Part shown: positions 73-58,882 of the stretch, one piece after another
Position numbering within the stretch: position 1 is the stretch's first letter
How the letters are laid out: every line of letters starts with the position of its first letter
Assembly (NCBI RefSeq): GCF_000003815.2
Contig: NC_049989.1
Span: 7,202,734 to 7,266,733 of the forward strand
Length of the DNA: 64,000 nucleotides
From: Branchiostoma floridae
Lineage: Eukaryota; Chordata; Leptocardii; Amphioxiformes; Branchiostomatidae
Direction of reading: 5' to 3'
Made by a program: the position numbers and the translations under genes
The notes under the pieces: model-generated
What the model saw: only the letters and a program-made list of their open reading frames with translations
The model's database searches: none
Told to the model about the DNA's origin: nothing

Positions 73-1498
73 TATATATATATAGTAGACGTTACCCAAG
101 TGTCAGGTGTTATTTTCTATTGGTTACAAGCTACGTTATCATTAATTCATTTAGAAATTGGTCACTTTACGAACTAATTGGAAAATTGAATTACACATGT
201 ATTGATAAAATTTGATACATTATCGATAAGTATTGCCCACAAGGTTAGATGAAGTCGCCATAGTTTAAATTAATAAATTAATAAAGTGGATACCATTTTC
301 GGAAAAGAAGGCAGCTCCAGACCTATAGAATCACGATCTTCACTCTTGCCGTGTCTCAAGTGATGTACCTTTCATTCTCACAAATGATTGGTCACGATTG
401 TCCATACCATAAATACCATCATCTGTAGTTGATTGAAATTGGATGCCCCGATCCCCAGCCCATTCAAGCAGATGCGAAAGTAGGCAAATCACTTTAACGT
501 TTTCTGACCGGGCGACGTTTCTGCATTTCTCCATTGTTAGAAAAGCCATCCGGTCTGAAAACTGTACAATTTTCTAACCACCCAAACATCTGCTTGGAGT
601 TTAGCGTTGTCTGACCTAGGAAGTAAATGCCACAGGGGTCACGAGGGGTCATGAGGCTTCTATGACAACACGCACGCACCATCCATGATTTGATTGATTT
701 ACTGGTCTTCTATGTACAAAATCTGCGGAAATAAGAGTCTATTTCTCACTTGCTATGATATCTAGCTTTGGTGATGACGTAAGGCTGACAGAATATGGTC
801 TGCTCTGGTGAGAAAAGCTCAGTTTAAGCATGTTGTTGTCGGAAGATCCATGGTTACAACCGGTTTGACAGGTAAGCCCCCCTCCCCACACACTTTCAGT
901 TTATATACTCTGTAAAAAATACTCGGCATTATAAGATGAAAGAAATTTACCCAAAAGACACATTATGTGTGCCTTTTTTATATAACGTAAGTTACATTTG
1001 ATTGTGTTAAATCCGGAAACAAACTACAATTTACACAAATGATATTACACAATACACAATACACCCTATTGATAGACTTCTATGACACATTGGTATAGTG
1101 ATACAGTGACTACACAACTGCTTTACAAAATCAGACATAACTGAGGGAAGACGTGGATGACACTAAGATCACTTTGGGGTAAATATATGTCATTGAGAAA
1201 TGTAAACAATGGAATGAGACACCATATTTAACCTAATCATGACAGGTTAGGGTAAATATATTTAGGTAATGAAAAGGCCATGATTATAAAAGTAAAATAT
1301 TACTGCAATAAATTCTATATTAAGTTACAATGCACAGATTTGAGATGAGAGCAGTACTAGTATATGATTTAATAACAAATCCATTGTTATGGAAAAGCTC
1401 AATAAATGAAGAAATTATGATAAACATTTGCTATTGCAGTAGTATATTCTTTTCATATTGTTTGATGATTTCTGTCCAGTGTGTGAATCAGAGTGAAG
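73..1498. other. Upstream region of the STAND NTPase gene
   Basis: No coding exon is recognisable. A good acceptor (TTTCTGTCCAG, ending at 1479) lies 19 bases before the ATG at 1499, so the 5' UTR is probably spliced. A candidate donor is ACAG|GTAAGC with the cut after 871. The promoter was not identified. Confidence 0.4.
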
Positions 1499-4400
1499 AT
1501 GGGTTGTGGGGCGTCGACAAACTATCAGTACGAGGTGAACCTCACCTGGGAACAGGTGAGCCGCACCGTGGACACGCCCAGACCCAAGGACGACAAGCTG
1601 GTCCTCAGGCACTCCAACTGGAAAACTGTCCGCATCTTCGTCTCATCAACCTTCAAGGACTTTCACTCGGAGAGAGACGTTCTCGTGAAGGAGGTGTTTG
1701 CAGACTTGAGACATTGGTGTGAGAAGAGGAGGCTACATCTGGTGGAATGTGATCTAAGATGGGTAAGAAAATTGAGAAAAATTGAAACAAGAGCAGAAAC
1801 AGACAGAAACAATATATACAAAAATATCCAGGATTCAAAGCCGCGCTGATCCCGGTCAGTTTAGCAGTCCTTGAATCACTGTTACACTTTCTTCTTCTTG
1901 TAGGACAATCTTATGAGTTGCATATGATATGTGATATGTTTTTAAGAGCAGATAAGCATATACAATGTTTATCAGCAAAATGTAGACATTCTAGGCTGTA
2001 ATGTACATGTATTTACTTTTACACAGGGTATTCCCAAGGATACAACAACAGAGTTCACACTGAGGACATGCTTGGAGGAGATTGACAGGTGCTATGAAGA
2101 CAACATCATGCCTTTCTTTCTCAACATGACCAGGTATTATTCAAATAATTGTTAATTGTTCTTTGTACACATTTTAGATGTCAAAACTTTCCAGTCTAGA
2201 AATGACTATTACACTGTTGTTAATCAACGTTGCCCTCAAGGAAAAGGAGTTGGTTTGTATGTCTGTCTGCTTGTGTGTCTGCACTGCAGTTTCTGTATGT
2301 TCAGCCAGATGTTCTTTACTCTAACTACCTTTGTCTGTCTTCAGTGAGAGATGTGGTTGGATCCCGGGTGTCCAGGAGGTTCCTCCACAGTTTGCAGCAG
2401 AGTATCGCTGGATCCACGGCCTGTCTGTCACAGAGATGGAAATCATGCATGGAGCGTACAGGAAAGGCAACCCAAACTGTGAGTGGACTTAATGATGTTG
2501 TTTATTTCATGCTCACGAACAATGCAAGTAAGCACAGAAAGTATGCATAGAAAGGCAGACTTTTAATCCAATACCTCAGAAAATACATTCTCTTATAGTC
2601 TGTTAAATCTTCGAATAAGGATTCACTTATGAATCATATAAGGGCAAAGATAAAACACCTAAATTTCTTGTAGTTTTTACATGATTCCAGACTACAGCAA
2701 TTTTATCTCTGTTGTAAATTCCTTCCAGCCCTGTTCATGATCAGAGATGGTTCTTTCCTGGAGTCTGTACCTGAGAAACATCATAAAGACTTCATCGACA
2801 TCACACCTGAGGCTCCCTTCAAACTCAAGATGCTGAAGAAGATGTTACAGGACAGATTTGATGTATGTTACCCATTTGTAGTAATCTTATCTTTTCTTTT
2901 CTTTAGTGAAAACAAAATTTTCTTCTCGTCAGCTATTACAATGCTTCTACATCATTTTTCCTTCACATCAACCAAATTGTAAGTGGGCCCATTCAAGTTT
3001 TGGATTCAGTACAATAAAAGAAATAACCAGAAATTTCAAGGGATACTCACCTGTTCTCACCTGCCTCCAGCCCAGCCAGGTGTACCAGTACCAGTGTGAG
3101 GTCGCAGGGGTCAACTCAGAGGGCAGAGTTCAACTTAAGGGGCTGGAGAACTTCAGTCTGAAGGTACCCCAGGAATAGTTTAATGTCGGTTTAAGTTGAA
3201 ATACTCAGATATTTTGTACAATTTGTACTATAGATTGTGCTGTAGAACTTATTGGAAGGTTCAGTCTTTACTGATGATCTGTATGTTTATCATTAACATG
3301 CCTGATCATCTGTGTTTTTCAGGTGTTTGAGTTCTTCACACAGAGGGTAGGGGAGCAGTACCCGCTGGAGGAGGTACAGACGGACCCGTACAGACAACAG
3401 GAGGAGGCTCATGAGGTAAAGGGGAGGGGGGTAGTGCATGTACATCTATTTAAGATAGTTCTTATGGAAAGATTTGGAAGCAAGTTGACAACTGTCACAG
3501 CAATCGATTTTTGTATCAAAATGTCATTTTCTTGTGCTGAAATGCTGGTATATGGCCCAAAAGTTGACAATTGTACCATTTAAATGAATGCGTTTTATTA
3601 CATATGTATGCCATTGTGCCATTGTGTTTTCAATAAACATGCAAATCACACAATTGAAAAATTTTTTTGTAAAAATTGTTTGAAACAAAGGCAATTTTGT
3701 TGATGTTGTATATCTATGTTAGATGCATAACACATACTTTATCAAGGTTCCATTGTCATGTACTACATTGTATATGATTTTACCAGGCCTACATGAAGAA
3801 TAAGGGAGACCTTGTGTTGGGGAGGGACTCCATCCTACAGGAGATCCAACTTTACATCACAGAACTGGGGGTGGACTATCCCATGCTGCTGGTGGGGGAG
3901 GCAGGGTCCGGCAAGTCAGCCATCATGGCCAGGGTAGCAGATGTGGCCACAACAAAGGCTCTGAACAAGGAGATACCTGGGTAGGTATATTGGAGGGATG
4001 TTTGACATATAGTGTGCCATCTACAGTCATGTGTGATATTCGGAGAGGTTTTTCCCCATGTTTACTGCCAGTTGCCTTTGTGGCAACATGAGGGCAGTCC
4101 AAGTAATTTCTACTTTGAAATGGTTCAGAAACATTAGGAAATAAAGTAAAAGGTTAAGATTGAAATAGTGTGTTAGGAGGAAAACTTTAATCTGATTTTA
4201 TTTATTCAATAAAACTGCGTCTACCAAGAGGTAATAACCCTAGATCTAAGTAACAGATGACAAATAAGGTGGTGTCGTCTAAATAGTGGACAAAACTGCT
4301 CTGTGTCCATCAACATACTAGTTAATGAATCCATTTATGATTTACCAGTATACCTGGAGGAGGGTTGACTGATTAACAGAAAGATGCTGTTTTTTGTGTC

Positions 4401-29200: not shown

Positions 29201-32200
29201 CTAAGTGATGCACTTTACTGTCATTGATCATATTGTCTACCAACACAGGTGAGCTAATTCATTCTAATACCAGTGAAATCTATTCCTTTGTTACCCCACT
29301 ATATAGGTGCTAGACTCAGGCAGGCCTGCATTCGGGTCTATGATGAACATATGCCCTGATCTAGGGGAAATTCAACAGGAAGTTCAAGTTCAAAAACAGC
29401 AGAGGTCTCAGCCTCGTTTCCGACCTGCTGAAGTTGGCATGGCTGTGCAGGCCTACTCTAATGTTGGGATTGTAAGTTTTATGGTAGAGTGTAACATGCA
29501 TGGGTGCAACTTAGAAATTACTGTGGCCTTTTTTAACTGCTCTCAATATCATCTCTGTTTAAGTGTTTCCAAAATGACGAGATGTATGTGTGCAAAAAAA
29601 CACATGCTTTTTTCTTCTTGCTACACACATGCTACCTAAGGTTTAATCTTGCAATAGCCGGAGTATAGCTATAGATAAAGCTGCACAGCACTAGTTTTTG
29701 CTGTACTACCAGTATGATTAATGTGGGGAGTACAGCAGACATCTATCTGCTAAGCAATCTACCATTAAGGGGATTGTAGAAACATTTAGTTGCAAGGTTT
29801 TGCTGTTCTTGTAGAGCACAAACCTCTGTGATTTATGTTAGACTCTGAACTGTTCTGATTTTCACCCCTTTTCCTATTCAGGATCCACTTGCGGATCGAA
29901 GCGACCGTGGGCCCCGCCCTCGTCCGGATCAGCCACGCGACAAAACCAAGGTGGTGACCTTCCGCGTGCCTCACAATGCTGCTGTCCAGATCTACGACTA
30001 CAAGGAGAAGAAAGCAAGGTATGTGATATCCTTTCATTGCTTGTTAATGAAGCACTGAGCCACACACATAAGCTTGTGGACATTTGTACAAACTTAGTAT
30101 GCATGAAATAACATTATATGTTAGATCATTATAGCTAAATATTAACCCCTGACACTCCTCCCAACTCCACCTTCACAAAAAGCAGCCCTGACAGCCAAAT
30201 GGAGCACTATCGAGTTTAAATAAAGGCACAAACAAATAAGATATATCAGATGGACAGATATGAATGCCATATAGTATTTTCCATTTACAGTTATAGTTGA
30301 TATTCCTCAAAAGTAGTCGTGCCTGATATCAAAGTGCTAAATCTCTGGATACCTCACTGACCATGGATTGCGGACTATATTCCAGGGTTATATTTGGTCC
30401 TGAACTGGTGCTGCTGGGTCCTGATGAACAGTTCACCCAGCTCAGTCTGTCTGGAGGGAAGCCCAAGCGACCCAACGTCATCAAGTCCCTGTGCCTGCTC
30501 CTGGGGCCTGACTTCTGCACTGACATCATCACCATAGAAACGGCTGACCACGCCCGCCTACAGCTGCAGATGAGCTACAACTGGTAGGGGATTCATGACC
30601 TGCCCATTCCTTTATAGAAAATGGAACCTTCTTGCTCCCATTATCTACCTGCTCCAACTAACTATCAAGTACATTAAGCTGAATTTAGTAGCCATTGGTC
30701 TCACCATGGTGTTCCCATATTTTCCTGCCTACAGCCTAGCTTTAACCCTCTCAGCACGAGAAGCCACTATCATGGCTTTCCCATAGGACGCGAGAAGCCA
30801 CGATCGTGGCTTCAGGTTTAATTCCGGCGGGAAATTCAAACTGACTACTGTGAAATGGGAAATTTGGCAGAGTCTGCCAATCAGGATGCTTGTATCTTTG
30901 ACCAACCAGAAGGGATGTAGCATTTGAGCCCTGTTTCTGAGGCCTCCAGCGTGTGTTTTGGCTTCAGTTTTCTACAGGTTTATTTAGTAAATTTAGCAGA
31001 AATGGAGACAGTTTGGTGGATAATTTTGTTGGAGGCTTACAGGAGTGATGACAGGGAAATCCTTGAGGGACAGCAAGGCAAACACCCAGCTGTTTTTGTT
31101 GAGATCAAATGAGCTGATATCACCGTGTCTAATGAGTTCTACATGCATGCTTCCTTGTTGTTTTTCTTGGGGCATAAGGAGGTCCAGGTCAGGTCAGATA
31201 GGTCACTGGTCCAAATTGACATTTTATATACTCTGATACCTGTTTCTCTACCCAAGTCATAGTAAGTGGATTTATTTGACTCCCTGATATGTGTAGAACA
31301 TCCAGAAAAATAATTTGCCATTTAGCACAAGGCATATTCATTATTTTAATAGTACAACTACAGGTGTGGGGAGGGGGGCACAACTGTTTATTGGGGTGAA
31401 CATTTGTTTATCAACACTGAACTTATTTGAAATCATGCTTTGATTTTTAGTTTTTGGTCATTCTAACAGCATACCAGCATTGTGTATGTATGGTTGAGTA
31501 TTTCTACATAGTTTCATGATAAATGACACAAAAAACTCAGCCCCTAGCCAAATGTTTTCTTTTGTGAAACTTTTTTTGGGAGTGTTGCAAATGTGTTTTT
31601 GAGTGGTTTCCACGACGATTGCTGTCCTCAGATTGATGGTACGATATTTATTTTGCTTGTTTTGGAAAGGCCATTCTGTGAGCTTTCCAGCAATATATAG
31701 TTTTCCTAGTCTACTCCTTACATAACAGCTGTAATAATAATACACAAAAAGTACTAATTGACACCTGTATAGACTGGAATTATATGTCGTATATGGTATA
31801 CAGGAAAAAATTTTATGACGTGTTGAGAGGGTTAAGCTACTAATGATTGGTCTCATCTCAGTGTTCTTTTCTTGTGACCTCCAGGCACTTTGACGTCAAG
31901 GACAAGACAGCAGATGGCAAGAAAATTTTCAGCGTCCCAGACTTTGTTGGTGATGCCTGCAAAGCTGTTGCCTCCCGTGTCCGTGGTGCTGTTGCAGGTG
32001 TTCAGTTTGATGATTTCCACAAGGTACTATAGGTCAGACATCGAAGTTAGGGCTGCCCATTGACAAGCATGTTGAAATACACTGAATGAAGGCTTCAAAA
32101 AAGTACTAACCCATAGTTCAATCTTTAAAATTCTTCTCCACCAGAAAGTCACTTGGGTCTAGTTTATAAGCATTCAAAGAAAACAGAGGGTTGTTTGGCT

Positions 32201-35200
32201 CATTCTCGGAGAAAAGCTCGCTCTATGAAAGAAACCTCACCTTTGACCCATTTTCCCTCCTGATACAACCAGTAGCACCCTATAACTAAAACCTGTCCTT
32301 ACACCAGCTGAACTGCTGAACTGAACAAATTTTGACCCAAACAGGAAAGCTTAGACCCTACCTGTCTCTTCTAACTCAAAAAGTCTCCAGATTGGGCAAA
32401 AATTTTCAAGGAAAAGAAGGATTTTCAAGGATTTTAAGTCACACCCAAATCGTCTTCCCATTTTTTGCCCTCTACCGCGCAACGCAACTCTGACGTCAGC
32501 CCTACTGGGTACCCGAATAAGGGAGTTGAGGAAAAATTATTATCCCAGCTGATACAGGGAGGGGATGCGATAGTGTTTCCCAAAGATGAACTGTATTGAT
32601 TGCTCCCTTGGGAATTTAGAGCCAAATCTATACCCAGTGCACCACAGCTTACCCCATGCAATAAGGCATGTAAAGCAGTGGGGTAGTGTACCAAAAGTCA
32701 TGTGACTTTTCCAAAATCCATAGGTGTTTATCTCTTAGCAAGTCTTAATAACTACTAACCATAGTCAGTTCTACATCTCTGATGTAAAATTGCAACTTTT
32801 CAATAGAGGGTTTTCTTTTTTTACAACTTTTTTTACTAGTTTTCATACAATGCTGTTTCAATGAAACTGGCAAACTGTACACACAAAACACAACATTACA
32901 CAGCTGAAATGTCCCTACATACAGCAAAATCCTGTTTAATGGACTGCAAGTATTGCCCTGTACTACATTCAGGAGTATTATTTGCAATAGCTCCTCTTTT
33001 TAGGGTCTCATGGTCTCATAACACAGTAATTATCCGCGACCCCCGTCCCCAAAAGTAGTTCGGGTTAAAATAGTGCATCGCGGTACTTGCAAAGGCCGTA
33101 TTTATTCTTCCGTGCACGACAGCGAGGTGGAATCTGTGGTGAATAGTAGAGGAATACATCGGCGTTCATATTGTATAAGTTGGATTACGTCGCTTTTTCG
33201 GCCGGCGGGAATTTGCGCCTTGATATGTTACCGGCACTTCCTGTTCGCCGCCTGCAGTTCCATGACCTCCGCTGGGGGTCAAATCAAAGTGTCTGTTATA
33301 GAAAAACGAGCCGGCAAATCTATGCTCATCTTCAGATATTTTGTAGCTTGTACCCTCAACTTCAACATACTAAATTCTTGTGAATTGTATCTGCACCCTA
33401 CTATAGGTTTTGAGTCGTCGAACCACCTCACTTTGGGGTCCTTAACCATGTAAATCCCCATACCCGAAAAACTGTGTTCTGAGACCTTCATCCACAGCGT
33501 GAATTCCCCAGGGACGGACAAGCACATTAAATTTGACCGATATGTTGGTAATTGACCTCGGCTGACTTGAACTGTAACATTTTTGTTACCGTCTGACCCG
33601 CCGTTACCATGGCAACGGCCGCCTAGACCGTTCCCTATGCTTAAGTATAGGACTTAGTGCGGTCTAAAGCCCGCTCGACTCCCCCCCCCCCTTTTTCCGC
33701 CCTAAAAAAGACAAACCCCCAACCCCAATCACTCAGAACGGTAGAATGTGGTCTGGCAAGCTCCTTATAACAGAAAAAGTCAACCAGAATATCAAGTTTG
33801 TTGAGATAATGAGACCAATTGGCGGCCCCTCAGATAGTCCTTGTACAGTGCCGACACCTGTGCTAGGCGCCAAAGTGCAAAGTTGGCCATATCTCAGGAA
33901 CCATTTGGATTTCTGCTCTAAAATTTGGTACGGTTTTGTATCTTGACTAGTTTTATTGTATGAACGTAAAGAAATCCAAGGTCAAGTTGGCTTAAGGTCT
34001 CATAACACAGTAATTATCCGCGACCCCCGTCCCCAAAAGTAGTTCGGGTTAAAATAGTGCATCGCGGTACTTGCAAAGGCCGTATTTATTCTTCCGTGCA
34101 CGACAGCGAGGTGGAATCTGTGGTGAATAGTAGAGGAATACATCGGCGTTCATATTGTATAAGTTGGATTACGTCGCTTTTTCGGCCGGCGGGAATTTGC
34201 GCCTTGATATGTTACCGGCACTTCCTGTTCGCCGCCTGCAGTTCCATGACCTCCGCTGGGGGTCAAATCAAAGTGTCTGTTATAGAAAAACGAGCCGGCA
34301 AATCTATGCTCATCTTCAGATATTTTGTAGCTTGTACCCTCAACTTCAACATACTAAATTCTTGTGAATTGTATCTGCACCCTACTATAGGTTTTGAGTC
34401 GTCGAACCACCTCACTTTGGGGTCCTTAACCATGTAAATCCCCATACCCGAAAAACTGTGTTCTGAGACCTTCATCCACAGCGTGAATTCCCCAGGGACG
34501 GACAAGCACATTAAATTTGACCGATATAGTAGGGCACATTATGATTGACAGGTCCTAATTGGTAAGGCATACAATTACATGGGACTAAATCATCATCAAG
34601 TCCATCATTTTCATTGAATTCATACCACTTTTGTAGTAATCTATGCTATCTGAGTTATTCCTGACAGCTTCCAATACATGCATGCACATACTTTATGCTG
34701 CAAAAAATCACAAAATATCACATTTTTGCTACATTTTTGGAAAATTCATGCACAAAACTGGGTCCACACTTGACAAAACCTCTTGTATACGATATTGCAA
34801 CATGGTTTCAGCAAATCTGAGACAGCTATATGGTTCAAAAGGCCTCAAATGCAAAATGGGGGTGGGGGGCAGTACAGGTCAGACATCGAAGTTAGGGCTG
34901 CCCATTGACAAGCATGTTGAAATACACTGAATGAAGGCTTCAAAAAAGTACTAACCCATAGTTCAATCTTTAAAATTCTTCTCCACCAGAAAGTCACTTG
35001 GGTCTAGTTTATAAGCATTCAAAGAAAACAGAGGGTTGTTTGGCTCATTCTCGGAGAAAAGCTCGCTCTATGAAAGAAACCTCACCTTTGACCCATTTTC
35101 CCTCCTGATACAACCAGTAGCACCCTATAACTAAAACCTGTCCTTACACCAGCTGAACTGCTGAACTGAACAAATTTTGACCCAAACAGGAAAGCTTAGA

Positions 35201-38811: not shown

Positions 38812-40247
38812 AAAGCATGGATGAACCCTCGTAAAATAGTTTTATAAGACATGTAATGCTGCAGTAACTGTTGAGCTCCATGGAGGTGTATGAAAATGGT
38901 TTGTTACTTTACCACAGAAATGAATACTGGATAGAATGGACTTTTTTTAAAGAAATACTTTCAAAAAGAACTTGGTGGTAAAGAGGGAACAGAACACCCT
39001 TACCAATATATGGCTGCAATCCCTACCTATTGGATAGGGGAGGGGATAGAACTGTATATTTGAAGTGTTTCTTACATTACTCAACATGTACAATGCAAAT
39101 GCTGTGCTAGGGAGTTATCAAAGTTAGGGAGGGGGCTAGAAGTAAAACCATTAAAAACTATGGAAGAGAGACCTGTGCAGGATGTGTGTTTTTTCACTCC
39201 AAGAAACAAGTCCGAAATAGACTTAAACATGCATAAGGCAGCTGTATTTTGACCACCAAAGAGATGTACTGTAAGTAAGATACTAGTACTATTGATAATC
39301 CCATTTCTATGGTGAAAAGTGTTGAAGAAACATAAAAAACAAAAAAATATGCACCAATCTGGCTTATGTCGTGTTGTTGATATTCTATCATGATTGGGTG
39401 GAGTGTGGTTCTGATGATATGTAGGTTTGATGTAAAACAAGTTGGCTGTCACTGATAATTGTTCTACTTAATATGTTTATATGATAAAAACACCACAAAT
39501 GATATAAAGTTTTGAATAAGTAGATTTATATTGAACAGCTTATCAAAAGTCTTCAGATTGAAATTATAGGACATGTATGTAACACTGCTACAGATCTAGT
39601 TTTAGAAGCTATTCCTTGCTTCTTTGTGCAATATTACTACGGTGTTAACTTCTGCACTGTATTACTTTTTCTACATTTTGTACTTTTGATAGTGGTTTTC
39701 TGCACTTTTGCCAGTCATTTAAGATACTTTTTTGTGCAGGTTGATTACATTTCTGTTTCTGTAAGTTCAAGTTCAACAATGTTCTGTTTATCTTGACAAT
39801 AAAGCTTCACAAAAGAAAGGCATATCTTGTCTTCATGGCAATAGTCATGATAAACGCTGACCATATGCAACTAAAACTTTGGTATAGTTTGATAAACGTG
39901 ACGTTATGGAAAAATAATATACATAACTGCCAACAACAAAATGCAAACATGTATGACCCACTAAATGAAGATGTTGCTTACAAAAGGCATTAGGCTGTGG
40001 TAAGAATTGGCAGCTTTCTTTTAATTCAGTATAAAGATTTTCTCTATTTATATTGAGACAAAACAAAATGTTGACAAATCCTGTGTTGTTGACTTGAGAC
40101 TTGAAGACTGCCAGAGAATTTAGGATATGTCCAGAAGTTGTTTATCATTTTTACATATACATCTTAACATCATAGTAATACTATAACTCTGTCATGAGAA
40201 ACCATTAGTCAGTGGCAATAACAAGGTCCAACCACAGCCTGAACATT
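38812..40247. other. MVP 3' UTR and convergent spacer
   Basis: Non-coding on both strands as far as I can see. A possible minus-strand ATTAAA poly(A) signal for the small gene lies at 40025-40020. Confidence 0.4.
39798..39803 (+). terminator. MVP poly(A) signal
   Basis: AATAAA lies 987 bases after the MVP stop codon; no earlier AATAAA was noticed in the 3' UTR. The next gene (minus strand) ends about 200-450 bases further on, so the two are convergent. Confidence 0.6.
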
Positions 40248-41341
40248 TCACCAGCCCTCGTCTCCGTCAAGTGAGGCTTCTGAGAGTGTCGGGAGTTCAA
40301 CAGTGCCTTTCGGTCTCAACAACTCCGGAGTGACGGGTCTGACTAGTAGCGGAGGTGCGTTCGGGTCTAAGGAGATGGAACTTCGTGGTGAAGCGAAGGG
40401 GCCGGCCTCAAGGCCCTTCCCGCCAAAAGCATGGTCACTTGCTGATCTGCATACGAAAGATTAAACGTTTTGATAAAAAAAGTCCTCTTCCTCGGACTTC
40501 CAAACTATGGAACTCTCGATGACAACTATTTGCCTCCTGTATGCAATCTACAGGCTTTCAAAACCAGTGTTCACCTCAAAATGATTTTCATCATGCATTA
40601 TATTCATTGTGTAGAAGTGATCAAATAGCATTGCATTAAACAAAACCGTTAGTTTGGCAGTAGGTATCGTAAGATTTAGGATTCAAGTGTTTTGTGTTTG
40701 TAGAAATATATCTCTGCGTCCAAAGCAAAACCGATATCTCTCATAGTTTGTAGAGAAATAAGGAAAACCATTGAATTTATTGTGCGTACTTGCCCCATTG
40801 GGCTAAGTATAGGTCGCAAAATATTGCTTACGATATATTTTGTACATTCCAGCTAGTCTTGAAAACTCTGGATACAGAAATTTAGTATGTGAATTTGCCT
40901 TCTTGTCTATGTGTAATCATCGTGCCATGGATATATAAAAGAAAATATTGCAACGTTACATTTATAGTTTTGTTTGTTTCCCCCTTCCTTGCCCCTGAGT
41001 AGTTATGTTGGGTGGCAAAGAAAAAGTATGGCAAGTATATCTAAATGCTAAAGAAATATTAATTTGTCACTATTGCTTTTAGTGTATCGAGTAAAAACAA
41101 GAGTCGTTTGTGCGTACCCTTCATCTTGTTCTTCGGCGATTGCGGCCACCCCTGGAGCAATGGAAGACCGTCTTCGAGACCTCCTTCTCACCCTGTTCAT
41201 TCTTTGCAGTTCCTCCTGTGCGGAGATAGGGATATCCTCGTCTTCGTCCACCATCACTGTGATCATCGGAGTTTGTGAAATTGTTTCTGCCCGTTTTAAT
41301 AGATGAATAGAGGAGGCTCGTTTTGAGATCGTACATCCCAT
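40248..41341 (-). CDS. Small acylated protein A (MGCTISK N-terminus)
   Basis: Two exons on the minus strand: 41341-41118 (ends GG, donor GTACGC, phase 2) and 40446-40248 (acceptor ATGCAG, in frame to TGA); 140 residues. I do not recognise the family. The start MGCTISK fits N-myristoylation at Gly2 with palmitoylation at Cys3. Basophilic kinase-type sites follow (KRASS, KRAET, RRRSRRRSS), then SSIAPGVAAIAEEQDEG. Exon 2 is rich in Pro, Ser and Leu (PFASPRSSISLDP, PVTPELLRP) and ends GDEGW. Three codons upstream is an in-frame ATG (41350), but the second gives the acylation motif. The gene converges with MVP. A relative lies at 47237-46242 on the same strand. A membrane-attached kinase substrate or adaptor is an inference only. 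Confidence 0.6.
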
Positions 41342-41613
41342 TTTGATCACGTGTCGGCAAAAGGTTTGTTGACAAGTCTGCCCATGTTAAGTCCTCAAGA
41401 TTTTCTTTTGGGGTCGTTGTGCCCTTGTGGAATGTTTTGAGATGTTCGCGACTAAGGGTAACAAGTAATGCGCTACACTGTTTCGTCATATTTGTTTGTG
41501 ACGTTTTGAGACATGTTCCGTGGAAAACTAATCTTCAAGCAGATGTTGGGACGAGAATCAGTATCTAACAACTACTTGTTGGAAACCTTTTTTCGATAGT
41601 TTTCCTTTTGCTT

Positions 41614-41623
41614 CTATATATAG
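41614..41623 (-). promoter_or_regulatory. TATA-like box upstream of small gene A
   Basis: CTATATATAG is palindromic and lies about 275 bases upstream of the ATG of the minus-strand gene, which would leave a 5' UTR of about 250 bases. An X-box half site GTTACC lies at 41462-41457 (minus). Confidence 0.25.
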
Positions 41624-43097
41624 AGCATTAGATTTGTGAAATTCTTTATGTCATTTACAAATCGTTCTTTCGTGTGTTAATCTTCATGCAGACTTTACTG
41701 GAAGTACAAGAATTTCGAAAATCTTCTAGAATTCAAATAGCTGAGGAATTTATCCGCTGTGTTTATTCTACTACTACAGACACTGTCCTCTTGCTCAAAT
41801 ATTCCTCGATTATTTGATCTCAATACTCAAAACATAGTAGCGGCCGCGGTTTTCCGCAGCATGGGCTTAATACGTCGGCTATGCTATGAGTCCTTTGTTT
41901 GGCTACATTGGTTGGAAAATACTCAAAAGCTTAACCTTTACTTCAAAAGCACATGAAAAACAGAGCAAATTGTTACACATGTTAACGTTACCAATTCAAA
42001 AGTACCTAGTCGCAATTTCAGTTTTTGGCATGCGGGGAATGGCCACATGACTGTCCTTGTCAAGCTGCCAAAGTAAAATATATGGACATAATGTTGGTCT
42101 CTAGAGCTATCTTTTCAGCATAAGCAGTTGTTAATACCGTTACAACGTATGGTATAAAAGGTGGCGTTCTACGGTAAACCGACAGGGCAGTTGTTCTTGG
42201 GGTCAGCTGAGGACACAAGGGTTACCTACGGTCAACGGAGGGTCACCTCAGTTCTATGACGTCTCCATTTTGACTTCTATGACGTTCAGAGTTACCAGTC
42301 TGAGAACAAAATAAGCACGCCAAAACTTTACCAAGTCGTCTCCAGGGCCCCGATTGAAAGACGATGTTATTCCGGTAAGAACCATATTTGTTTGTCTTGC
42401 AACATCATATGTGTATGTAGCCAACCGTTACACTATCCTAGGAGAAGAATTACATGGTGAGAGTGTTGATTATAGAATGTTGACGCCTTAGCCGGTTGAT
42501 ACCATCTTGAAACCTTCTGACTCGCAAGTTTAAGAAGTTCAACTGATATTGATCTAGCCATGCCAGATGATATGAGGTAGAAAACAACTAAATCTATGTA
42601 ACAGTTACACCGTGCAATATCGATAGTCCCTGGAGCAAGCGTATTTGTAATCGCATAGTCTTTTTAGCGAATGCCCACGAACGCCCACTCTGGAGAAGTC
42701 CGCGCTGCACCAATGAGAGTTAGTGGCATATTTCTACATAACGCCAGTTGTATCTAGTAGCAATGGGCCCTGGTGCGAAAACATGTATTACCGTATTGTA
42801 TCAGTAACACGAATTTCTGAAGAGCTTGGCACAAACATGAACGAAGGACATTGTTCGATTACAGTTTTCATCATCCAGAATATATGTAATCCTACACCAA
42901 ACTTTTTTCTTCCTTCGGAGAAAGATCGATGTTTTCTGAAAGCTTCTGACCACATCGTCTATTCGTCGTGAGTGATAGATTTATTTTGTATGTTCATATT
43001 TTCAAACAAGACTTCGGAGGCCTCTGTGTCGAGTTGAAGGCTAGAAATTCTGTACTGGTATTGTCACTTTGGTCTGCCATAGGTCTTGACTCATGAC
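41624..43097. other. Spacer with an isolated TATAAAAG box
   Basis: No coding exon is supported. A canonical TATAAAAG at 42153-42160 (+) is followed by two TGACGT half-CREs (near 42257 and 42281), which could mark an unannotated plus-strand promoter. No downstream exon could be tied to it. Confidence 0.3.
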
Positions 43098-43218
43098 TAT
43101 TCTCCAAGCAGAGGTTGGGTCGCGGGGTGGGATAGTAGTGGCCGGGAGGGGAGCGAGCCGGTAAAAATGCCGGCCACTACTACAGTATCCCCTCGACCCA
43201 ACCTCTGCTTGGAACATA
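43098..43218. repeat. Fold-back MITE with CCAAGCAGAGGTT ends
   Basis: The arms TCCAAGCAGAGGTTGGGTCG and CGACCCAACCTCTGCTTGGA are perfect inverted repeats. The inside (GTAGTGGCCGG...CCGGCCACTAC) is also complementary, so nearly the whole 121 bp folds. Same family as 62518-62740 and the fragment at 51827-51845. No target duplication was recognised here. Confidence 0.75.
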
Positions 43219-43449
43219 GGTCATCTCGATGTTCCACCTGTGACTGCCATGTGAAGTTGGGAATGAAGTTCACTCTTGACATTGCCATTACTGCCTTCTC
43301 GGTAACGATGTCCGACATCTCTTCATAAACGGGTACGTAACTTGTCTGAAGCAAATGCCATTGGGGAAATCCGTCGTACTTGGTTTGACGCTGCAGCTGA
43401 TATTTTGAATTCCAATTCGCAATTCTATATATACACCTTGTTCGATCTT

Positions 43450-44141
43450 GTTGTAAGTGTGCGTAAGACTGAGTACATGTGCTACAATGCAGACCCGGGT
43501 AGTCCACTGCAAGTGTATGGAGAAACCATCTCACAGGTTCAAGACTTTAAGTATCTTGGCTCTATGATGACTTCTTCAAGTAGCGCAGACCTCAAGAAAC
43601 GCAGAGCTCTAGCTTGGGCCGTCTTCTGGAGGCTAGAACACCTTTGGAGGAGCGATCTCCTTCCAATAGCAACCAAAGTAAAGCTCTTTATGGCTACATG
43701 TGTAACTGTGCTTACCTATGGGTGTGAGTCATGAGTGATCACACAGGACATGGAGAACAAGATCAACTCCTTCGCCACCTCATGCTATCCTATCATGTTG
43801 AGCATTAAAAGGATCGATAGAGTACCTAACAGCACAATCTATGATATGACCAAAACAAAGCCGCTGATACAACTAGTGCGCCTGAGACAGCTGAACTTTC
43901 TCGGACACGTTCTGCGTTTGCCTGAGGATGAGCCTGTCAGTCTGTATGCACTTTACGTCCCTCCTCATGGCAGACGTAGACGGGGACGCCAGCCAACTAC
44001 TTATCTACAGTACGTCCAGCGACTAATGGGAGACCATCATGGCCAGATCACCCCCAGGCAGCTTCGCCAGCTCGCTGCTGATAGGCGGAACTTTAGAAGG
44101 CTTGCAGTCGCCTGCGCTGCAGCCGAACGATGATGATGATA
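43450..44141 (+). pseudogene. LINE remnant (RTE-like reverse-transcriptase C-terminus)
   Basis: A frame from about 43450 reads KTEYMCYN, then FKYLGSMMTSS, LTYGCES, RLRQLNFLGHVLRLPEDEP and a C-terminal RRRRGRQP block, the usual order after the reverse-transcriptase palm in RTE-type non-LTR elements. A TGA at 43732-43734 replaces the tryptophan codon usual after YGCES. The frame ends at 44133 and is followed by GATGATGATGAT, like the microsatellite tails of this class. The 5' part is missing, so the copy is dead. Confidence 0.75.
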
Positions 44142-44341
44142 TACACCCTGTGGATGGATCGTATTTGTATTAATAAATGAGAAGTAATGAGTGTACACAA
44201 AAGACGTGGATGTGCGTCGAAGATTAATGACATTTGTACTGTTCATAAATCACGTGCTTTGACCAATTCTCTAAAAGTATAAGAATCATTGTATCACATA
44301 CCAATAACATCTGTGAATCTTCCTCAAAGTTTTTTTCTACT

Positions 44342-45494
44342 TTACTTTAAAAACTTGATATTCAAGATAATCTTCCAGCTACCATTAAAAAAACCACATC
44401 TTCTACATTGAATAGTACTTATGTTGTATGTTTGGAAAGAGATACAGATAAAGAAATACTATTGCGTCATGCCAATAGCCAAATTTTACGAGAGAACGGC
44501 TTCCAAATTGTAAACATAAACTCAAATCAACAAATTCCAGAATTTGGCATCATTGACATGCGCTTCCAAAAATTTCTATTAGGCATTCATGCCAAAGCCT
44601 CAAACGATGGTGTCAGGGGAGAATTAGGAACCTTCCCAGCTATGATTGATGCCGAAATACGACTTGTAAAACATTGGCATGGTTTAGTTAATTTGCCAGA
44701 AGATGCTCTTCTTAGCGAGGCATACAATACCGTTTTACTCGGAGAACATGATTGGATTGTCCACGTAAAAATTATCCTCAATTACCAAGGCTTTGGACAC
44801 ATATGGCTGAACCTGAGGTCATACCACATAGACACAACGACCACTCAGTTACGACAACGTTTACAAGATATATACAGTCAAACCTGTAATAGGGGCCACC
44901 TCTACAAAGTGGCCACTTTTTGTCGGTCCCTTGGGTATTTTATCTACAAGTTGCAACCTCTATACAGAGGCCACCTGTCTATAGTGGCCAAATTTGTCCG
45001 GTCCCTTGAGTGGCCGCTATAGACAGGTTTGACTGTACGTGCAAAATTGGCATTCCTCTATTCGAAACAATTCCAAACTCTCCTCTCTTTCTACATTGAA
45101 CAAGCATTACAAGCAAGAAAATTACATTTCAACCATAAAGAGCCTTGACATTCGTAGGGCAATCACACAAATCAGAATTGGCTGTCACAAATTAAGTATA
45201 GAAACCGGGAGATTCCAAAAAATCCCTATAGATCAGAGGGTTTGTCCATTCTGTCCAGAGCTAATTGACGACGAATATCACTTTATGGTTGTATGTCCCA
45301 AATATTCTGATATACGAAATTCTCTGTACACAAGGCTGTCATCTTATACACAAGGATTTATCTCGATGGACCTGAAGTGCAAATTCAAATACATCATGAC
45401 ATGTGACAATCCCTGCATGACAGATATAGGAAAATATATCAAAGAAGGTTTAGACATTAGAAATTCCTCCAATGATTGTAAAAGCCTCCAATAA
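44342..45494 (+). pseudogene. Second LINE remnant, split by a MITE
   Basis: The frame (44408-44874, resuming at 45038-45494) has KFLLGIHAKASNDGVRGELG, AEIRLVKHWHGL and, near the end, CPFCPELIDDEYHFMVVCP, a CxxC...HxxxxC finger found at the C-terminus of many non-LTR retrotransposon proteins. The 161-bp MITE at 44875-45035 interrupts it; flanking codons are in frame once the MITE and one TA are left out. The reverse-transcriptase domain itself is missing. Confidence 0.65.
44875..45035. repeat. Intact 161-bp MITE
   Basis: Inverted ends CAGTCAAACCTGT and ACAGGTTTGACTG with TA on both sides (44873-44874, 45036-45037), a Tc1/mariner-like target duplication. Two diverged internal units each contain GGCCACCT...GTGGCCA...GGTCCCTTG. 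It is inserted in the second LINE remnant, hence younger than it. Related copies: 1-72, 4680-4800, 17975-18175. Confidence 0.8.
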
Positions 45495-46241
45495 CTGTAA
45501 GAAACTTATCCCATACCACAACTTCTGTATTAGTTAGATAAGCGTTAAGTTATAGAACTGTAGTTATGTAGATGCCATACTTTGTACCCCGTACAATTGT
45601 TGTGCAAAAAAACTATACATGTTTATTATTAGTGGTCTTCAATAATCCAAATGCCAAGATGCCAACGCAAACAAGGTGTTTAAAATTCAATCAGATTACT
45701 CAGATTGACGTGACTTTTCGGGTTTTCCTTTTCAACTATTCTCACTAAGTTACGTTCACTTACACTGATCTATTTATTTCTTGATAGTTGCACACAACAT
45801 ATACACCTATTCAAGACGACTGCTCCCACTGAAAAGTGTCACTTTAATTCTATATCCCTTACGTTATAACGCATGAATATATTAAAACGTTACAACAGTT
45901 CGACTGTTCTGCGCGTTATCACTCTCAGCTGATCAATATTGAATATTGAGTGGATATGTCACTTTGGTTCTAGTTCGTTTTTTACAGTTTTGTTATAACG
46001 CACAGTGTTTCGGCATTGTATCAACCTCAGTTGATCAAAATTCAATATTGAGTGAATAGTGACATTTTCATTCTCCTGCTATAAAAAAAAACACGCCATT
46101 CTGATGTAGTGTAGCAGATCATACATTTACACTTTGTGTGTCAAGGGCAAGAAAATACCACGATAGGTCCATTACAAAATATTATCGAAATCAGTTCCAC
46201 TTTATCGGTACAGTTTTCTCCAGATCTGCTGTTCTGATAAA
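45495..46241. other. Spacer; 3' side of small gene B
   Basis: Possible AATAAA for the minus-strand gene B at 45778-45773. The sequences TCAGCTGATCAATATTGAATATTGAG and TCAGTTGATCAAAATTCAATATTGAG (about 45927 and 46028) form an imperfect direct repeat of roughly 100-bp period that also contains TTATAACGCA. No coding exon. Confidence 0.35.
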
Positions 46242-47237
46242 CTATGATCTTTGGGGGTCCCGCCTGTCGCTGTGATGAGATGATCTGCTCTGGTCGGAGA
46301 CATCTTCCCCGTAAGCGATGTTCGCGCTCTCCGATGAGCCAAAATCCCAGCTGCCGGCCTCCCTGGTAGACAAAGGGAGGTACGTTTGGTTATCATTTCG
46401 GTACGGCGGTTTTTTCTGCTCATGTGGATAGATATCTTGCCTATAACCTCATCTCCTCACTGTCCTTCTTAATCCGCTCCCAACGATCGCTATTCCGCCA
46501 ATAACTTGCCTAACCCCTGCCATTGAACAATAATGCTTTGGACCAGCAACCTTTATGCTTAGGCTACATTTCCAACCCATGGCCCGGCCTGGCTGTTTGC
46601 CGAAACGAAAATTTTCTTCAAAAACATGCACAAATTGTGCTCATGTCTGATTATTCTTACGTTTTACATGCTTTGTTTTTTTTTTGTATATCAAATTTTT
46701 CGTTTCGACCTAAGCATAAGCGGGACTACTACGTATCACACCAGACCGCCATGACATTCAAAAGACGCTATTGAACATATTTAACAGCTCAAACGTGAAC
46801 GAATTGTCCAAAACAGACGGCGGGAATGGGAATCTTTGTCTTTCCTATCGTAGTGAAAATTCAATGAGATGCCATGATCAGCCTGTGTCACACTCCCTTG
46901 TGTCAGGCTCATCGTGTAACGTTACGGGATCCAGAGTGGTCCAGGGGCCTTCCGTGCCATGGCCGGCCCAGCCCTTAGTGTACTAGTTGAGCAAGTAGGT
47001 AGAAATAGGACGCTAACCACTTCCATACATGTATACGTATGCTACGTTGCAGACCTACTCTTCATCAGGATCGTCTTGAATTGTATCCAGTCCCGGCACC
47101 ACCGACGCTCTCCGGGCCGTCCGTTTGGGTTGTCTCCGCCGAACCTCTTCCGGTGAGCTAGAAGGATTGCTTTTTGAAGATTGCTTGCCTCCTTGCTGCT
47201 TACTTTTCTTTTTAATCTTTGACGGGACAGAACCCAT
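46242..47237 (-). CDS. Small acylated protein B (MGSVPSK N-terminus)
   Basis: Two exons on the minus strand: 47237-47059 (ends GA, donor GTAGGT, phase 2) and 46362-46242 (acceptor CCTTTGTCTACCAG, in frame to TAG); 99 residues. Reading on through the donor would stop at once (TAG), which supports splicing there. The family is not recognised. MGSVPSKIKKKSKQ is a myristoyl plus polybasic membrane anchor of the Src/MARCKS type. RRASVVPGLDTIQDDPDE contains a kemptide-like PKA site. Exon 2 is Ser/Asp/Arg-rich (WDFGSSESANIAYGEDVSDQ, then HHSDRRDPQRS). The RRxS[IV].PG[VL]..I motif and the phase-2 intron two residues after DE match small gene A, so the two look like diverged paralogues. Confidence 0.6.
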
Positions 47238-47338
47238 GTTTTTTCCCTATTAGTGCAGTGATGTATGTTCCCTTGTTTGATTGTGACGTAATAAATGTTG
47301 TTTTTCCGTCATAGAATAACGTAGACAACGTCATGAAT

Positions 47339-48101: not shown

Positions 48102-58882
<10,781 letters not shown>

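Follow-up and report, generated by a model that had tools for sequence, protein, structure and literature searches.

A probable old tandem pair of small lancelet genes that may encode lipid-anchored phosphoproteins with a shared docking-type motif

The RRxS tetrapeptide is the consensus site of PKA and other AGC kinases, and the autoinhibitor site of the PKA regulatory subunit RII consists of RRxSV followed by acidic residues. A related principle of control is the myristoyl-electrostatic switch, for which MARCKS is the precedent: in the sections of the literature cited here, it is described as membrane-held when unphosphorylated and released or reoriented when phosphorylated (PMC5964646, PMC10940682). 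Here, we analyze a stretch of 64,000 nucleotides from the lancelet Branchiostoma floridae (contig NC_049989.1, positions 7,202,734 to 7,266,733; “the window”, numbered from its first base), in which two small minus-strand genes, A and B, combine a myristoylation-type N-terminus with a basic patch, an RRxS site, and an adjoining acidic segment. Judged from sequence, A and B may be ancient tandem genes encoding disordered myristoyl-electrostatic-switch proteins that carry a docking motif, a reading to which, taken as a whole, we assign a probability of roughly 0.4.

The original prediction had proposed two minus-strand models of two exons each, and translation and splice frame reproduce both of them base for base (Table 1). 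The predicted products are 140 (A) and 99 (B) amino acids long, with the stop codons ending at 40248 and 46242, respectively, and upstream of each ATG lies an in-frame stop (at 41389 in A and at 47249 in B). In both genes, exon 1 leaves two bases over, which places the intron in phase 2, and neither second exon contains an in-frame methionine, confirming the earlier remark that these exons lack an ATG. The GC content is 0.49 to 0.59 in the exons vs 0.35 (A) and 0.45 (B) in the introns. Past the stop of B, the hexamers ATTAAA and AATAAA are found at 45848 (393 bases away) and 45778 (463 bases away), respectively. We consider it likely that A and B are real protein-coding genes; the initial observation is sound, and the two models probably represent a true tandem pair of such small genes without a Pfam family.

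The two chains begin alike, with MGxxxSK, and share a cassette of roughly 25 residues; otherwise, they are very different. The cassette runs, in the same order in both, from an arginine-rich patch through RRxS[IV], one variable residue, and PG to [VL]xxIx[DE][DE]xDE, with an FG that starts eight residues past the last glutamate. The RRxS serine is residue 60 in A and 45 in B, and the intron interrupts codon 75 and codon 60, respectively; the claim that the intron sits at the same place relative to the motif thus holds exactly, with a distance of 15 codons in both genes. Among the 172 ungapped offsets of A against B, the one that superposes the introns is the best (score of 65 over its best 34 residues; the runner-up has 19), and the intron-anchored score was reached by none of 20000 shuffles of A in each of the four ranges tried. 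The part behind the junction, with its FG equidistant in A and B, is weak when taken alone, being equaled by 359 of 20000 shuffles. A BLASTP alignment of A with B contains 16 identities in 41 positions (expectation value [E] = 2e-5, for a single comparison). Among the 16 identical residues of the aligned core, 12 are encoded by different codons (11 of 15 in the set first printed), as would fit an old duplication preserved in protein sequence. This excludes recent copying of the DNA but does not by itself exclude chance. Altogether, the common strand, the spacing of about 5 kb, the shared lead and core motif, and the phase and position of the introns support the proposed paralogy well, and A and B are a probable old tandem duplicate pair.

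To put numbers on the shared signature, we generated 1500 order-2 Markov windows with the trinucleotide statistics of the window itself. An MGxxx[ST][KR] lead with RRxS[IV] behind it in the same open frame had a mean of 0.002 per simulated window, occurring once in 0.2% of them and never twice; two are present here, for a pattern that was assembled after seeing the data and whose two halves are both textbook motifs. On its own, the lead is unremarkable (mean of 1.8 per simulated window), and the looser pair MGxxx[STAGCN]...RRx[ST] reached two occurrences in 87 of the 1500 windows, so that it is the specific combination that gives the result its strength. Translation of the window in six frames yields four instances of MGxxx[ST][KR] and two of RRxS[IV].PG[VL]; these two are the ones in A and B, in frame downstream of two of the four leads.

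Further copies were sought nearby and across the genome. Three signature patterns, slightly looser than the simulated one, do not occur in 200 kb of flanking sequence (twenty 10-kb pieces, including about 2.5 kb of N), and a profile of the shared core, applied to the window and its flanks, recovers A and B, its own source, and nothing else below E = 1. With these three patterns and two-row profiles, no third tandem copy was found in the window or within 100 kb on each side. Searches of the whole genome (513,431,437 bases in 431 contigs) returned only the query's own locus for A exon 1 (E ≤ 0.001), B exon 1 (E ≤ 10, two candidates scored), and the A core (E ≤ 10); since just one or two candidates per query were passed on for scoring and the A query misses B, these searches do not exclude other diverged copies.

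How A and B might work is suggested by the order of their elements. Both N-termini, MGCTISK in A and MGSVPSK in B, conform to the N-myristoylation rule MGxxxS/T/A/C/N as stated in the cited portion of PMC9584500, and if the genes are real, their products are probably N-myristoylated. The N-terminal glycine, freed by removal of the methionine, would then provide one weak membrane anchor, possibly reinforced in A by palmitoylation of Cys3; G-alpha proteins starting with MGC are palmitoylated at this residue. The arginine/lysine patch (net charge of +8 over residues 45 to 62 of A and +5 over residues 29 to 47 of B, with an additional +7 over residues 1 to 28 of B) would add electrostatic attachment to acidic lipids as a second anchor. 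Once PKA or a similar basophilic kinase had phosphorylated the RRxS[IV] serine, this attachment would weaken, and the adjoining acidic PG[VL]xxIx[DE][DE]xDE segment, which we propose as the partner-docking part, would be freed or changed. In A, Ser59 as well as Ser60 lies behind the arginine pair. The acidic stretch behind the patch has a net charge of -4 in A (residues 65 to 75) and -7 in B (residues 50 to 61). Provided that the genes are real and the proteins N-myristoylated, the phospho-switch as proposed is somewhat better than an even bet, and the interpretation of A and B as candidate lipid-anchored phosphoproteins is a reasonable one.

A and B resemble MARCKS and MARCKSL1 (PF02063) in their myristoylation-type N-terminus, their probably disordered chain, their basic patch with serines that may be phosphorylated, and the electrostatic switch proposed for them. 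However, A and B are much shorter and show no match to the MARCKS profile at E values up to 5, and the MARCKS effector domain is described in the cited part of PMC5964646 as lysine-rich, whereas the patch in A and B is rich in arginine and carries an RRxS site. A search of the whole genome with PF02063 also gave no match; since the control genomes were equally silent, this does not imply that the family is absent from the genome. We regard the MARCKS analogy as functional, with A and B apparently not members of that family. The autoinhibitor site of PKA RII, described at the outset, is similar to A and B in having RRxS[IV] followed by an acidic run, but Pfam finds no cyclic-nucleotide-binding domain in A or B.

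The original prediction also stated that no family with this layout is known, and this stands only as far as Pfam-A and the PDB sequences go. In Pfam-A, neither A nor B nor any of four pieces tried reaches the cut-off of a family, and in the PDB sequences, A has one chance-level match (AlphaRep, E = 0.36), B and the A/B alignment have none, and the B motif region has none even at E = 10. A text search of open-access papers gave none that contains MGCTISK, MGSVPSK, RRSSIAPG, RRASVVPG, or either of two variants. These results bear on the alternative that survives best, namely, that a known animal family of small myristoylated proteins includes A and B as diverged members and that its vertebrate representatives have changed too much for Pfam to recognize. 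Disordered small proteins do diverge fast, and the sole Pfam match, of A residues 48 to 79 to PF16643 (cNMPbd_u2), falls on the motif region. Yet this likeness stops at 14.2 bits (cut-off of 27; E = 0.06) and has no counterpart in B, which, together with the absence of any Pfam family above the cut-off, leaves this alternative unlikely, if the most credible of those considered.

Several results weigh against our reading. The two proteins have little in common beyond the lead and the core, and the similarity of their second exons is weak. When all open reading frames (ORFs) of at least 30 amino acids in the window are compared all against all, the pair of first exons ranks 72nd with composition adjustment (66 pairs are higher in bits) and 51st without it (50 pairs higher), and it is not listed when low-complexity sequence is masked; by eye, the higher-scoring pairs are mostly repeats or repeated domains, with a few apparently due to chance. 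Both donors match only 6 of 9 consensus positions, a level shared by 16% of all GTs, and within each first exon lies a GT that matches 7 of 9 (at 41191 in A and 47203 in B). Codon usage is equivocal: when the reference is a set of 400 codons for Pfam-matched residues, taken from pieces of major vault protein, trypsin, TSP1, and DUF4062 in the window, 38 of 350 long stop-free stretches match or beat A, 48 of 350 match or beat B, and one wrong frame of B outscores the right one. With a reference of 559 codons, extending partly beyond the Pfam matches and including an unmatched ORF of the vault region, the corresponding fractions are 9% (A) and 17% (B), and two wrong frames of B outscore the right one. 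In favor of the reading, the AlphaFold2 model of A has a mean predicted local distance difference test (pLDDT) score of 56, with no residue at 90 or above and low-confidence helices at residues 9 to 14, 16 to 19, and 40 to 58, the last running through the basic patch; this fits the view of A and B as small proteins that are probably disordered for the most part, although, with only two rows in the underlying alignment, the low confidence is no proof of disorder.

The equivocal codon usage, the mediocre donors, and the unexceptional rank of the pair in the window-wide comparison are what one would cite for the view that A and B are not genes, or that one or both have decayed; the frames would then be open by chance and the motif a coincidence, or the duplicates would be silent. 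Against it stand the joint signature, which never appeared twice in a simulated window and whose related patterns are absent from 200 kb of flanking DNA, the matching intron offset, and the step in GC content between exons and introns. On balance, we find this view improbable.

A different proposal concerns the docking partner. The conserved segment could be a docking motif for PP2A-B56, in which case A and B would be membrane-tethered recruiters or decoy inhibitors of this phosphatase, and with a kinase site just upstream, a single spot would be subject to both kinase and phosphatase. According to the cited portion of PMC10970375, the B56 motif is [LMFI]xx[ILV]xE, with an invariant glutamate at position 6 and with acidic residues at positions 2, 7, 8, and 9 strengthening the binding. 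On this layout, the core reads V-A-A-I-A-E-E-Q-D in A and L-D-T-I-Q-D-D-P-D in B, so that the strict consensus is missed in each, by the valine at position 1 of A and by the aspartate at position 6 of B; the motif is also short. Position 1 is not strict, as KIF4A uses CSPIEEE, and in several known binders, a basic patch precedes the motif on its N-terminal side by no more than about 15 residues (both from the cited part of PMC7108865). In A and B, positions 7 and 9 are acidic and the basic patch lies within this distance, with six residues between the last arginine and position 1 in both; such helper features are not required in all ligands. The B56 (PPP2R5) binders KIF4A, RepoMan, NHS, and AIM1 share with A and B a hydrophobic-xx-Ile-x-acidic core that has additional acidic residues and a basic patch shortly before it on the N-terminal side, but A and B both miss the strict LxxIxE consensus, and binders of this kind are large proteins without an MG lead. 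A potential partner is encoded in this genome, where B56 exons give 23 matches, all on one contig (C1). The PP2A-B56 proposal is compatible with the switch explanation, to which it adds the name of a docking partner, and we judge it, like the absence of genes, to be improbable. In its most far-reaching form, A and B would belong to a family of PP2A-B56 recruiters, either restricted to lancelets or deeply conserved and so far uncatalogued, that are anchored by lipid, gated by a kinase, and equipped with a single 25-residue cassette at the membrane (basophilic kinase site, ligand of the B56 acidic patch, and LxxIxE-like core); this form appears very improbable. As a separate observation, adjoining sets of B56 exons on one strand at 10.97-11.07 Mb of contig C1 suggest two or three tandem PP2A-B56 genes.

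The weakest alternatives can be dismissed briefly. A recent DNA duplicate or repeat artefact is ruled out by the 12 of 16 differing codons and by the lack of a repeat link, as none of five direct-repeat families (at least 20 bases, 40200-47300) forms a bridge between the coding exons of the two genes; for the spliced models, the idea that A and B are merely the beginnings of longer domain proteins is rejected, as both second exons end in stops and ten ORFs between 38 and 50 kb show no Pfam family above the cut-off; and a prokaryotic or viral origin found no backing in 105 pattern matches from viral contigs and 115 from prokaryotic contigs, none of them confirmed as relatives.

Table 1. Coordinates and features of the predicted genes A and B in the window
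Feature	Position	Strand	Description
Gene A exon 1	41118..41341	minus	MGCTISK lead, acidic stretch, basic patch, RRSSIAPGVAAIAEEQDE motif, phase-2 donor
Gene A intron	40447..41117	minus	671 bp, GT...AG, GC 0.35; acceptor pyrimidine fraction 0.69
Gene A exon 2	40248..40446	minus	65 residues past the split codon, then stop
Gene B exon 1	47059..47237	minus	MGSVPSK lead, Lys/Ser-rich basic stretch, RRASVVPGLDTIQDDPDE motif, phase-2 donor
Gene B intron	46363..47058	minus	696 bp, GT...AG, GC 0.45; acceptor pyrimidine fraction 0.81
Gene B exon 2	46242..46362	minus	39 residues past the split codon, then stop

The neighbors, on the plus strand, are a gene for major vault protein and a TSP1/trypsin gene region. 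Between A and B, on the opposite strand, 43342-45494 (plus) contains open frames that by eye resemble decayed pieces of a retroelement without long terminal repeats and that have no Pfam match above the cut-off. A short repeat at 44891-45011, made of two 46-base direct copies (76% identical) and found again at 2-91 by translated match, is possibly a small non-autonomous element. The TSP1/trypsin gene region includes a tandem array at 50402-50898 (plus) with 11 copies of a unit of about 44 bases, which two Rfam mir-2060 matches overlap. The first 17 bases of bbe-miR-2060c-3p, a mature form recorded for Branchiostoma belcheri in the cited part of PMC5650284, occur there in nine copies with up to three mismatches, four of them exact, in or at the end of the array (50402-50913); the mir-2060 family may have arisen from a minisatellite or may itself be one. 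The Rfam matches and the four exact copies support the assignment of the window to a lancelet. Farther away, 32023-35167 (plus) holds nested direct repeats with 300-base copies that are 99% identical (33007/33991, spacing of 984; 32023/34868, spacing of 2845), which could reflect a recent duplication or an assembly artefact. At 1493-1846 (plus), an ORF with an MGCG start matches DUF4062 at 25.5 bits vs a cut-off of 24.7, with a nephrocystin-3 domain below its cut-off.

None of this overturns known biology, as each element of A and B is familiar. If expressed, the two genes would represent a small protein family without a Pfam model above the cut-off, and one that gene finders would readily miss, given that A and B are short, probably disordered, and split into two exons of which the second lacks an ATG. 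If the proposed reading is true, one short natural chain would combine a lipid anchor, a kinase site, and a phosphatase-type docking motif, making A and B a compact example of such an arrangement.

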